Assembly (NCBI GenBank): GCA_016871275.1 | Contig: VFZG01000003.1 | Coordinates: 1 to 64,000, forward strand | Length of the DNA stretch: 64,000 nucleotides | Direction: 5' to 3' | Source: Acidimicrobiia bacterium | Lineage (GTDB): Bacteria; Acidobacteriota; Vicinamibacteria; Vicinamibacterales; UBA2999 | Shown: in pieces, positions 49,754-54,369 of the stretch | Position numbering within the stretch: position 1 is the stretch's first letter | Layout: every line of letters starts with the position of its first letter | Program-made: the position numbers and the translations under genes | The notes under the pieces: model-generated | Databases searched by the model: none | Seen by the model: only the letters and a program-made list of their open reading frames with translations | What the model was told of the DNA's origin: nothing

Positions 49754-50454
49754 GAGCCGAACAGTTTCCTGAGCAGGCCCGGCGCCCTGACGTCGCCGGT
49801 CGCTGCGTTGAGCTCGAGCCGCTGCCCACCGATCGCCTTCGACAGGGCCTCGTCGGCGGTGATGGCGAGCAGCGCGAGGCCCCGAGACTGCGCGGCGCGG
49901 GCCAGATCCGCGCCAAATGCCGCCACTGCTTCGCGCGGGAGGCCCGCCGATGGATGCTCGGCGATCAGCAGCTTCGGCCCGAGCGCCAGCGAACGCGCCA
50001 GCTGCACCCGCATGCCGACGTCCGGCGCCACCGTGCCGGCGGGGAGATCGAACAACGATTCGCTGATGCCAACACTCCGCGCCAGCGCTCCCGCCTGTGG
50101 CACGACGCGCGGATCGATGGGATCGACGTGGAGCGTGAACGACAGCGCGATGTTCTGCAGCACGGAGAACGACCCGACGACAGTCCCTCGCGCGCTGACC
50201 ATGCCGACGCCGTCCAGTGATTGCAGCCACGACTCCACGTCGGCGATCTCGCGCGTGTTCTGTCCAAACAGGGTCACGGTCCCCTCGTCCGGCAGCGTGG
50301 CGCCGGTGATCAGATGCGTCAGCTTCTCAGCCGCCGGCCCGTCGATGCCTCCGACGGCCAGCACCTGCCCGGCGGTGACGCGCAACTGGGCGATCCGCAG
50401 CGGCCGCAGTGCCTGGTAGTCCTTCTTCAGGCCGCTAATCTCAAGCAGGATCAC
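49750..50454 (-). CDS. ABC-type ATPase domain protein with lost catalytic motifs
   Basis: 234 residues from GTG 50454 (GTGA overlap with the PHP gene). The overall ABC layout is clear: MILLEISGLKKDYQALRPL, GQVLAVGG, LPDEGTVTLFGQNT, VLQNIALSF, GMRVQLARSLALGPKLLIAE and a closing LAITADEA. But Walker A reads GGIDGPAAEKLT without the GKS/T, the Walker B Asp and catalytic Glu positions read AEHP, and the H-loop His is absent (ITADEA). ATP hydrolysis is therefore unlikely. No permease gene is in the operon. It may be a regulatory or structural relative of a MlaF/LolD-like ATPase. Confidence 0.7.
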   Translation of the reverse strand: MILLEISGLKKDYQALRPLRIAQLRVTAGQVLAVGGIDGPAAEKLTHLITGATLPDEGTVTLFGQNTREIADVESWLQSLDGVGMVSARGTVVGSFSVLQNIALSFTLHVDPIDPRVVPQAGALARSVGISESLFDLPAGTVAPDVGMRVQLARSLALGPKLLIAEHPSAGLPREAVAAFGADLARAAQSRGLALLAITADEALSKAIGGQRLELNAATGDVRAPGLLRKLFGS

Positions 50455-51287
50455 GAGCCGGCCCGCCGCTCGAGACGAGCGAAATCCTCGGCCGGCAACG
50501 CCACTCTGCCAAAGACGGCGCGATGCGCGCGCTGCGGTTTGGTGTCGTCGCCGTGAAAATCCGAGCCGCCAGTGACCAGCACGCCAAGGCGCGTGGCCAT
50601 TTGCCGATACAACGCCACCTGATCGGGCGCGTGATCCGAGTGATAGACCTCGATGGCATCGAGACCGCGTTCGGCCAGCGGGCCAATGAGAGCGTCCCGC
50701 CTGGTCACGCCGGGATGGGCGAACGACGCCACGCCGCGGGCGTCGTGCACGATCTCGATGACCGCCGCCACGCTCGGTCCCGAGCGAGGCACGAAGGCAG
50801 GGCGACCAATCGCCAGCCATTCATCGAACGCCTCCTGCACGCTGCCCACGTGGCCGGCACGCACCATGGCGCGCGCGATCTGCGGGCGCCCAATCGACGA
50901 CCCTGGACGGGCCGCTGCCGAGCGCAGCAGCGCTTCGGCGTCCACCGCGATGTTCGCTGCCGCCAGCCGCGCGGTAATGTCCGCGGCTCTCGAGACCCGC
51001 AGCTCTCGCTGCTTCACCAGGAACGCCGAGAGCCGTTCGCTCTGTGCGTCCACGAAATAGCCGAGCACGTGCACGTCCCGACCATCTTCGACGGCGGTGA
51101 TCTCGATGCCGGGCACCACGCGAATGCCGGCCGCGCCGGCCAGCGCCGTCACCTCGGCGACCGACGCCACCGTGTCGTGATCGGTCACGCTGATCGTCGT
51201 CAAGCCGGCGGCCTGCGCACGGACGACGAGCTCGGCGGGCGTGAGCCGCCCGTCGGACGCCGTCGTATGCATGTGCAAGTCGATCAC
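50451..51287 (-). CDS. PHP-domain phosphoesterase (RNase AM/YciV-like)
   Basis: 278 residues from GTG 51287. PHP motifs: DLHMHTTASDG at 3-13, ISVTDHDTVASV, VVPGIEIT, SFAHPGVTR and the final GSDFHGDD, which together bind three metals. Characterised members are 3',5'-nucleoside bisphosphate phosphatases or 5'-3' exoribonucleases (RNase AM) that trim rRNA ends. Intact length. First gene of the coupled PHP / ABC-like / HAD unit, with no clear regulatory element in the 57 bases before it. Confidence 0.88.
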   Translation of the reverse strand: MIDLHMHTTASDGRLTPAELVVRAQAAGLTTISVTDHDTVASVAEVTALAGAAGIRVVPGIEITAVEDGRDVHVLGYFVDAQSERLSAFLVKQRELRVSRAADITARLAAANIAVDAEALLRSAAARPGSSIGRPQIARAMVRAGHVGSVQEAFDEWLAIGRPAFVPRSGPSVAAVIEIVHDARGVASFAHPGVTRRDALIGPLAERGLDAIEVYHSDHAPDQVALYRQMATRLGVLVTGGSDFHGDDTKPQRAHRAVFGRVALPAEDFARLERRAGS

Positions 51288-51344: not shown

Positions 51345-52334
51345 CTACGCCGAGTGTCTCCGCGGCTTGCTCCTGGCCCGCGACTTGCCGGCCTTCTGCG
51401 GCCTGTGCTTCTTGACCAGCAGGCGGTACTCGCGGATCAGCAACTCGAGGTGCTCGCGCTCCTCTCCGGCGAACTCGAGGAAGATGCGCTTGCCTTCGGA
51501 GTCCTCGAACTTCTCGCCGTAGCGCTTGAAGAAGCGGTGCGAGCCGCGCTCGCAGCGAATGCCGATGCGGTAGGCCTCGAGATCGTCCACGCCGTTGCGG
51601 CGCAACTGCTCGGTGCCGGCCGAGAACAACCCGTTCGCGGCGCCCTTGAAGAACAGGAAGGTCGGCCGCGATTCGAGCCGCGCATCCTGCTTGAGCAGCT
51701 CCTGATAGCGCTTCTCGAGCGTCTTCAGGTGTTGCACTTCCTCGGTGGCGAGCTTGCGGAAGATCTCTCGCGCGCGCGGGTCCGTCACCAGCTTGACGCC
51801 GCGCCCATAGAACTCCATGCCGCTGCGCTCGGTCGCGATCGCGATACGGAGCGCATCCCGGGCGAACAGCAGCTCGGAGTTGACGGGATCCTCAGCGGCC
51901 GTGCCCGACGTGCACGCGTCACAGCTACCGTAGATCTGCACCACCGTCTGCCGGGCCGTGAAGGCGCGGGCCACCGCGACCTCTTCGACCAGCACCTCGA
52001 TGTCGGAACTGAGGAACTCGTACGAGCGGTTGCAGGTCTTGCAGATCAGGTGAAAGTGCCGCGGGTGGCGATAGGAATGCTCGAAGCGGAAGCGGCCATC
52101 GCCGAAGTCCACTTTGCGGGCGATGCCGGCTTCTTCCATCCACTGCAGCGACCGATAGACCGTCGCACGGCTGATGCGGTGGTCTTCGCGCTTGGTGAGC
52201 ACGACCAGATCGTCGGCGCTGAGGTGTCCCTCCTGCTTGAGGAACACGTTGACGATCAGATCGCGCTTGCTGGAGCGCTTCGTGCCTGGCGGCCGGAGCC
52301 GATCGAGATCTGGGATGGCCGCGCTGGAGGCCAT
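51345..52334 (-). CDS. Fusion of a Fur-family repressor with a rubrerythrin/ferritin-like diiron domain
   Basis: 329 residues. Residues about 15-145 are a Fur-type regulator: wing-helix DHRISRATVYRSLQWMEEAG (recognition helix) and HFHLICKTCN with Cys98/Cys101 and Cys138/Cys141 as the structural zinc site; HPRHFHL supplies regulatory ligands. Residues about 150-310 are a ferritin-like four-helix bundle: Glu169, Glu199-xx-His202 (ATEEVQH) and Glu262, Glu292-xx-His295 (GEEREH), the rubrerythrin diiron pattern, without a rubredoxin tail. So one chain joins an iron/peroxide-sensing repressor to a diiron centre. ATG 52334 is the start; the longer frame lies in the next gene's region. The next gene is an A-type Fe-S carrier, then Fe-S fumarase. 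Confidence 0.82.
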   Translation of the reverse strand: MASSAAIPDLDRLRPPGTKRSSKRDLIVNVFLKQEGHLSADDLVVLTKREDHRISRATVYRSLQWMEEAGIARKVDFGDGRFRFEHSYRHPRHFHLICKTCNRSYEFLSSDIEVLVEEVAVARAFTARQTVVQIYGSCDACTSGTAAEDPVNSELLFARDALRIAIATERSGMEFYGRGVKLVTDPRAREIFRKLATEEVQHLKTLEKRYQELLKQDARLESRPTFLFFKGAANGLFSAGTEQLRRNGVDDLEAYRIGIRCERGSHRFFKRYGEKFEDSEGKRIFLEFAGEEREHLELLIREYRLLVKKHRPQKAGKSRARSKPRRHSA

Positions 52335-52356: not shown

Positions 52357-52728
52357 CTACGCCGAGAAGGATGAACCGCAGCCGCAGGTGGACGTGGCGT
52401 TGGGATTCTTGATGGTGAATCCGCCGCCGGTAATCGTGTCCACGAAGTCGACTTCCGCGCCGCGCAGGTAGCTGATGCTGACCGGGTCCACGAACAACCG
52501 CACGCCATTCGACTCGAACAACTGGTCGCCGACGCCGCCCGATTCCTCGATCATCAGGCCGTACTGAAAGCCCGAGCAACCGCCACCCTGCACGAACACA
52601 CGCAGGCCGCTCTCGGTCTTGCCCTCTTCCGCGAGCAGCTCACGAATCTTGCCCGCGGCGGCCTCGGTCACGTTGATGAAGCTTTCGGCCACAGCCGGCG
52701 CATCCGGCGTCATCGTTTGAGTTTCCAT
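52357..52728 (-). CDS. erpA: A-type iron-sulfur carrier (ErpA/IscA/HesB family)
   Basis: 123 residues. The three cluster-binding cysteines are Cys51 (GGGCSGFQY), Cys115 and Cys117 (STCGCGSSF), all in place; [17 protein letters not shown] and [10 protein letters not shown] are family hallmarks. Cytoplasmic; passes 2Fe-2S or 4Fe-4S clusters to apoproteins. It lies 39 bases downstream of the Fe-S fumarase and 22 bases before the Fur-ferritin gene, all on one strand, suggesting one iron-controlled operon with fumarase as first gene. Whether it is ErpA or IscA/SufA cannot be told from the sequence. Confidence 0.9.
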
Positions 52729-52767
52729 AGTTTCCTATTTTACTGCCAAAGCCTGCTCTTCGAAGCT

Positions 52768-54282
<1,515 letters not shown>

Positions 54283-54369
54283 AGCCCATCAGTGTAGCCC
54301 GTCGAGTTGTTTATCGATCGGACTCAGCCCGATCCGCTGATTTGCGGCGCGGACATGCAGACACGCTGC

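Follow-up and report, generated by a model that had tools for sequence, protein, structure and literature searches.

A one-chain fusion of a Fur-type regulator and a rubrerythrin-like domain, adjacent to an A-type Fe-S carrier gene across an acidobacterial order

Fur-family proteins are the textbook iron switches of bacteria, in which one domain pair normally does all the sensing. Diiron sites of the rubrerythrin-like kind, by comparison, react with O2 and peroxide. A described system in which a Fur-family repressor and a rubrerythrin are encoded together is a pair of separate genes: PMC545781 places a PerR-like repressor gene and a rubrerythrin gene in a single operon, as predicted for both Desulfovibrio vulgaris and Desulfuromonas. 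Rubrerythrins, other ferritin-like proteins of COG1633 (2oh3, 2fzf and TM1526) and ferriperoxin share a bundle of four helices that carries two ExxH motifs and six ligands. Ferritin-like domains are also found as add-on modules in a DJ-1/PfpI-ferritin protein (3fse), at the C-terminus of PRK12775 and in the hydrogenase-rubrerythrin CperHydR, where the partners are enzymes or other domains and not a DNA-binding metal sensor. Here we describe a gene of Acidobacteriota in which the two kinds of domain meet in a single chain. It differs from the perR-rbr operons, which comprise separate genes, involve a PerR-like repressor and belong to another phylum (PMC545781), and it differs from rubrerythrins, COG1633 proteins and ferriperoxin in that the bundle sits behind a repressor and comes without a rubredoxin part.

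The window analyzed here is a stretch of 64,000 nucleotides from contig VFZG01000003.1. Its minus strand carries the fusion gene (51345..52334), whose frame runs unbroken from 52334 to 51345 through 329 residues and then meets a stop. A preliminary description of this DNA had read the frame as a Fur protein joined to a rubrerythrin-like diiron domain, and Pfam bears this out, with both families above their cut-offs. The FUR family matches residues 17-135 at 85.6 bits (E 3.7e-24; curated cut-off 23.1), while the Rubrerythrin family scores 40.5 bits over the whole protein (E 4.3e-10; curated cut-off 22.8), its best stretch being residues 160-222. The order of parts is a winged-helix Fur domain with Arg61 (residues 17-135; 51930..52286), a variable linker (residues 144-155; 51870..51905) and a rubredoxin-less, rubrerythrin-like four-helix domain (residues 156-310; 51405..51869), all on the minus strand. 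The only cysteine beyond residue 141 is Cys261 and Pfam gives no rubredoxin match, so a rubredoxin-like domain is absent. In a separate comparison, the Fur half (residues 25-150 of the protein, P0001) matches phrog_13084, a viral family without a named function, at 79 bits.

The survey for the same domain order that the preliminary description had proposed was rewarded both among close relatives and across the order. A scan of close relatives with one genome per species returned 76 loci, of which 75 contain the fusion, whole or truncated. The record titles nearly all bear Acidobacteriota names (Acidobacteria, Vicinamibacterales, Luteitalea, Sulfopaludibacter and similar); one that reads Cyanobacteria and two that read Acidimicrobiia are taken as binning labels. 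A complete frame (>290 aa) is present in 66 of the 75; eight of the other nine are open at one end, with no stop inside the locus, and the ninth, L071, is described below. The 76th locus, from Desulfobacteraceae (L077, 5914-6870), encodes a Fur domain with two FeoA domains in one 318-aa frame; it too is a Fur with an iron-related C-terminal extension, but that extension is FeoA and not a diiron bundle. Across 396 genomes of the phylum, a full-length match was found in at least 41 of 42 genomes of the organism's own order (the exception among the matches listed being G341), in none of four genomes of its class outside the order, among the matches listed, and in at least 27 of 350 genomes in the rest of the phylum, at 31-41% identity. 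Two further matches in the rest of the phylum are partial, one beginning at a contig end (G172) and one covering residues 124-302 only (G156). No match spanning both halves occurs among those listed for 297 genomes of the phylum of the Desulfobacteraceae genome G455, and none of 37 matching plasmid records covers 80% of the query. Other phyla were reached through the close-relative scan only, a search that missed the divergent set within the phylum and would equally miss divergent fusions elsewhere.

These counts also bear on whether an assembly or frame error has joined two genes. The preliminary description had pointed to residues 140-155 as the place where a missed frameshift or stop could hide; there is none. 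We found no point in favor of such an error, and the complete frame in 66 of 75 related loci, along with the full-length matches across the order, rules it out and leaves it a negligible probability.

The fusion appears to be the sole Fur-family regulator in most sampled genomes of the order. The FUR family model has a match in 94 of 100 of these genomes and exactly one match in 65. The single match lies in a frame of at least 300 residues in 61 of those 65, and 88 of the 94 have at least one FUR-match frame of that length, both counts being defined by frame length without regard to the ferritin half. In the genome under study, the fusion is the single FUR match, and the profile of its ferritin half finds no other protein.

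To compare metal sites, we aligned the protein from the window with the 66 complete relatives (67 rows). Fifteen ligand positions do not vary across the 67 rows: five regulatory positions of the Fur domain (His37, Glu85, His93, His95 and Glu106), four structural cysteines arranged as two CxxC pairs (Cys98/Cys101 and Cys138/Cys141, the latter at 51912..51923 on the minus strand) and six predicted diiron ligands within the four-helix domain (Glu169, Glu199, His202, Glu262, Glu292 and His295). The cysteine pairs, like the ExxH motifs (199-202 and 292-295), thus lie where the preliminary description had put them, and Glu169 and Glu262 complete the six-ligand set. From these ligand sets, both halves are predicted to bind metal. 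In an alignment with E. coli Fur and B. subtilis PerR, the regulatory metal ligands His33, Glu81, His88, His90 and Glu101 of E. coli Fur align with the five Fur positions of the fusion in the order given above. E. coli Fur His87 and Asp89, residues of a further metal site, align with Arg92 and Phe94 of the fusion. Passages of PMC8638851 are consistent with the regulatory roles assumed here.

Conservation is spread over both halves. Mean pairwise identity in the 67 rows is 79% for residues 15-143 and 75% for residues 156-309, separated by the linker at 36%, and each half has 43 invariant positions. A stretch that connects the helix pairs, PTFLFFKGAANGLFS (residues 224-238; 51621..51665, minus strand), is almost invariant, with 11 of its 15 residues unchanged in all rows. 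Because its identity and invariance approach those of the Fur half, the ferritin half is being maintained and is not decaying. In L071 (5941-6786) it is instead the Fur half that is affected: the 281-aa frame is about 48 residues short, an in-frame loss that takes out most of the Fur metal region, including the first cysteine pair along with metal histidines 93 and 95, and leaves the diiron domain intact. This may be an assembly error or a real loss.

Twenty divergent relatives from elsewhere in the phylum extend this picture. The nine Fur positions are kept in all 20, as is the second CxxC pair among them, and the six diiron ligands in 17. The three exceptions, L101, L102 and L103, belong to one family (f37) and have lost one, three and two diiron ligands, respectively, with the Fur site intact; a fourth member, L100, keeps them all. 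These are the four members fetched of a family with a full-length match in at least 11 genomes. Such losses are what would be expected if the C-terminal domain were a structural or degenerate appendage that aids only dimerization or stability and in which any metal is incidental. We regard this as quite improbable, given six ligands that are invariant in 67 rows and complete in 17 of 20 divergent ones and the 43 invariant positions of the ferritin half.

An AlphaFold2 model of the fusion, built from the 67 aligned rows, has a mean pLDDT of 84.6 and a pTM of 0.68. It displays Fur-type helices and strands followed by four long helices (residues 153-182, 186-216, 251-275 and 280-310). All 50 matches listed by Foldseek are Fur-family structures, including Magnetospirillum Fur (4rb1) with a TM-score of 0.83 by target length. 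VIA-align matches residues 156-309 to the COG1633 protein 2oh3 (Z 15.9, rmsd 2.9, 139 residues aligned), followed by other ferritin-like, Dps and bacterioferritin structures (Z 13.4 to 15.4), although Z values of this size in helical bundles may reflect a common arrangement only. The sequence profile of the ferritin half also finds 2fzf, TM1526 and 2oh3.

PerR has the same family and fold as the Fur half, and PMC8638851 gives a rule that separates the two types: Asn61 and Asp104 (B. subtilis numbering) mark PerR, while Arg and Glu at those positions mark Fur. The fusion has Arg61 and Glu106 in all 76 rows of a wider set, nine of which (L079-L087) come from the genome search and largely repeat the same species as near-copies, and in all 20 divergent rows. 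A PerR identity is rejected on this rule, and PerR-like oxidation by peroxide at the regulatory site is therefore not expected; by the same rule, the Fur half should recognize a Fur-type box. The likeness is to Fe2+-type Fur such as Magnetospirillum Fur (4rb1), with which the fusion shares the winged helix, the five-residue site with a glutamate, the two CxxC pairs and Arg61, and which lacks the roughly 180 extra residues that hold the ferritin-like domain.

The origin of the fusion was examined in trees of the separate halves. Ferritin halves of the fusions fall on one side against 14 proteins from the phylum of the Desulfobacteraceae, with an SH-aLRT of 97. Because this tree draws on the 14 of 15 fetched loci that gave a sequence and includes no unfused acidobacterial ferritin, it speaks only weakly for a single origin. 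In the Fur-half tree, a single fusion clade is narrowly rejected with all 62 rows (p-AU 0.045) and is not rejected (p-AU 0.678) when four rows are left out, these having been dropped after the first result: L104, L107 and L135 for their long branches, and L125, which stops at the edge of its contig and may be a truncated fusion itself.

The fusion lies in a row of genes on the minus strand. Twenty-two bases upstream is erpA (52357..52728), encoding an A-type Fe-S carrier that scores 138.2 bits to NF010147 (cut-off 117); further upstream lies a class I (Fe-S) fumarase gene (52768..54282; Pfam), and downstream a gene with a PHP domain (50451..51287; Pfam), which the preliminary description did not name, belongs to the same row. 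The two Fe-S neighbors named in the preliminary description are therefore what it took them for. Their ties to the fusion differ. Of the 75 loci, we counted those whose flanking sequence is long enough. All 68 loci testable for ErpA have a match to it on the same strand, ending no more than 400 bases before the fusion gene. The fumarase, by contrast, ends no more than 800 bases before it in only 33 of the 60 testable loci, which weakens the earlier suggestion that fumarase is a target. Downstream, a PHP match starts within 300 bases in 58 of the 68 loci that can be tested, and in 33 it overlaps the fusion. By eye, a -10-like hexamer, TAAAAT, precedes erpA (52737..52742, minus strand), at a place where a general promoter scan of the window gave no promoter. 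In relatives, the 70 bases before the erpA start contain an exact TATAAT in 24 of 67 loci, where shuffling gives 0.4 on average, and a match of five in six letters in 42 of 67, where shuffling gives 6.6. Given this enrichment, erpA and the fusion probably start a transcript of their own and would be co-transcribed.

The strongest hint of function is this order-wide linkage to an A-type Fe-S carrier. It raises the possibility that the Fur half receives iron or an Fe-S cluster from the diiron domain and ErpA, in which case the repressor would report the status of Fe-S or iron supply. E. coli Fur is reported (PMC11001641) to be activated by a [2Fe-2S] cluster in a manner that needs IscU, which makes the ErpA link worth testing. 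The linkage does not extend to the divergent fusions: an ErpA-like match occurs in only one of the 20 loci (L101; 39%, 3.5 kb away), and immediate neighbors are common only within close families. The genome under study also holds a second A-type carrier gene. Set against adjacency in every testable locus of the close relatives, these observations leave delivery of iron or clusters by the diiron domain and ErpA an improbable account.

Searches for an operator covered the feo loci of the order, the regions before erpA and fumarase, the organism's own genome and 149 genomes of the order, and established none. The intergenic region 52729-52767 holds a 6-base palindrome (52758-52765), and the region 54283-54369 holds a 9-1-9 inverted repeat with eight of nine pairs (54316-54334), 52 bases before the fumarase start. 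The latter is not conserved: in 4 of 43 loci the 150 bases before the fumarase hold any 9-1-9 repeat as good, with different letters. No Fur box was seen by eye before erpA, and none was found by score before the 20 divergent fusion genes, giving no sign of autoregulation there. At 30 feo loci of the order, the best match to the canonical 19-base Fur box is 10 to 13 of 19, which does not stand out from shuffled sequence (20 simple shuffles of each locus, with maxima of 11 to 14); L153, L155 and L173 exceed their own shuffle maximum, each by one. Palindromes resembling GAATGAGACTCATTC reach 12 to 14 of 15 in 4 of the 30 loci (14 in L173, 13 in L180, 12 in L175 and L179) against maxima of 11 to 13 in 30 block shuffles per locus, scores that are circular because the 15-mer was drawn from the same loci.

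Two of these palindromes lie near feoB starts in other families of the order (L173:2294-2308 and L180:1373-1387), and they are possibly a variant of the Fur box. In the organism's own genome, the palindrome core occurs 13 times when up to two mismatches are allowed, compared with 7 times for the reversed control; the best of these 13 sites overlaps the probable start of a gene without a known role. The exact core AATGAGNCTCATT occurs in 5 of 149 genomes of the order, against none for the control. One of these sites stands just before a TonB-receptor gene and another at the 5' end of a frame that matches carboxymuconolactone decarboxylase; the other three adjoin an NHL-repeat frame, an IS1595 transposase and a frame of no family (nine frames scanned). 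As a candidate operator, the core is suggestive at most.

The organism's own feo locus has regulators of another kind. There, feoB stands in a row with a gene that fuses a DtxR-type metal-binding and dimerization domain to FeoA (L158:2046-3062, minus strand), and a divergent DtxR-family gene adjoins the locus. Iron uptake may therefore be the task of DtxR, which argues against a role for the fusion as master regulator of iron uptake; its task may instead lie in Fe-S metabolism or oxidative stress.

The reading we prefer is that the fusion is an iron-responsive repressor of Fur type with a C-terminal diiron input domain, tied to Fe-S supply. We put its probability at roughly 0.45; gating by the diiron domain is the part that we infer. 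Fe2+ at His37, Glu85, His93, His95 and Glu106 would let the dimer bind DNA as in an ordinary Fur. The diiron site would be a second input, set by iron loading or by oxidation with O2 or peroxide, and its state would alter how stable the Fur half is, how it is loaded with metal or how tightly it binds DNA. A signal from peroxide or oxygen would in this manner reach the promoter through the diiron domain, and Fe-S supply, by way of the neighboring erpA product, would be adjusted along with it. As a Fur of the glutamate type is not expected to read oxidant itself, by the rule in PMC8638851, the attached diiron site would be the part to carry that signal. The suggestion of the preliminary description, that the bundle could inform the DNA-binding part about iron or peroxide, is plausible.

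At the level of sequence, the fusion itself, the two ligand sets, the conservation across the order and the linkage to ErpA are shown and speak for a repressor with a diiron input, and both halves match solved folds, Fur and ferritin-like; iron is the presumed effector, the two halves would be coupled, and the target genes are putative. Also in its favor are the Fur-type residues Arg61 and Glu106, the lack of any second FUR or ferritin-half match in the genome, and the precedent of ferriperoxin (PMC3317640), a relative of rubrerythrin that works as a peroxidase although it has no rubredoxin. Counting against it are the operator searches, which established no binding site, the DtxR-type regulators at the organism's own feo locus, the loss of diiron ligands in three of the four f37 members fetched and the loss of most of the Fur metal region in L071. 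The perR-rbr pair (PMC545781) cuts both ways: it speaks for a link to peroxide, yet the rubrerythrin partner known there is PerR-like, and the present Fur half is not.

The complete set of diiron ligands would equally suit a tethered enzyme or iron buffer that sends no signal to the repressor, removing peroxide or oxidizing Fe2+ beside the Fur site and the DNA and protecting them in the manner of Dps or ferriperoxin. Precedents come from ferriperoxin (Fpx), a rubrerythrin relative without rubredoxin that reduces peroxides with NADPH and FNR (PMC3317640), and from the hydrogenase-rubrerythrin chimera that reduces H2O2 (PMC11926857). The chain of the fusion, as judged by Pfam, has neither a rubredoxin nor another recognized electron donor. 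Regulators are presumably present in few copies, and a fixed one-to-one fusion would be odd for a bulk scavenger. We consider a tethered enzyme unlikely. Returning to the repressor with a diiron input, a further step would be that a Fur not open to PerR-like oxidation by peroxide has outsourced peroxide or oxygen sensing to the diiron domain, such that iron and oxidant are computed in one protein that is the only Fur-family regulator in most sampled members of the order; we offer this two-site form as tentative.

The preliminary description knew of no characterized protein with this architecture. That part stands, in that titles and the opening parts of abstracts in the full-text literature gave no Fur-rubrerythrin fusion, within a scope that excluded most subscription papers and all preprints, and passages of PMC5114695, PMC545781 and PMC11202242 name none; domain databases may carry the architecture. 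Within one order, the fusion is common. As far as that literature reaches, the fusion adds to the Fur family an apparently undescribed variant: in most of the order's sampled members, what seems to be the only Fur bears an additional iron site that looks intact. If the two sites communicate, this would be a diiron sensor wired directly to DNA, and the division of Fur-like and PerR-like functions would become addressable in one chain through one ligand pair.
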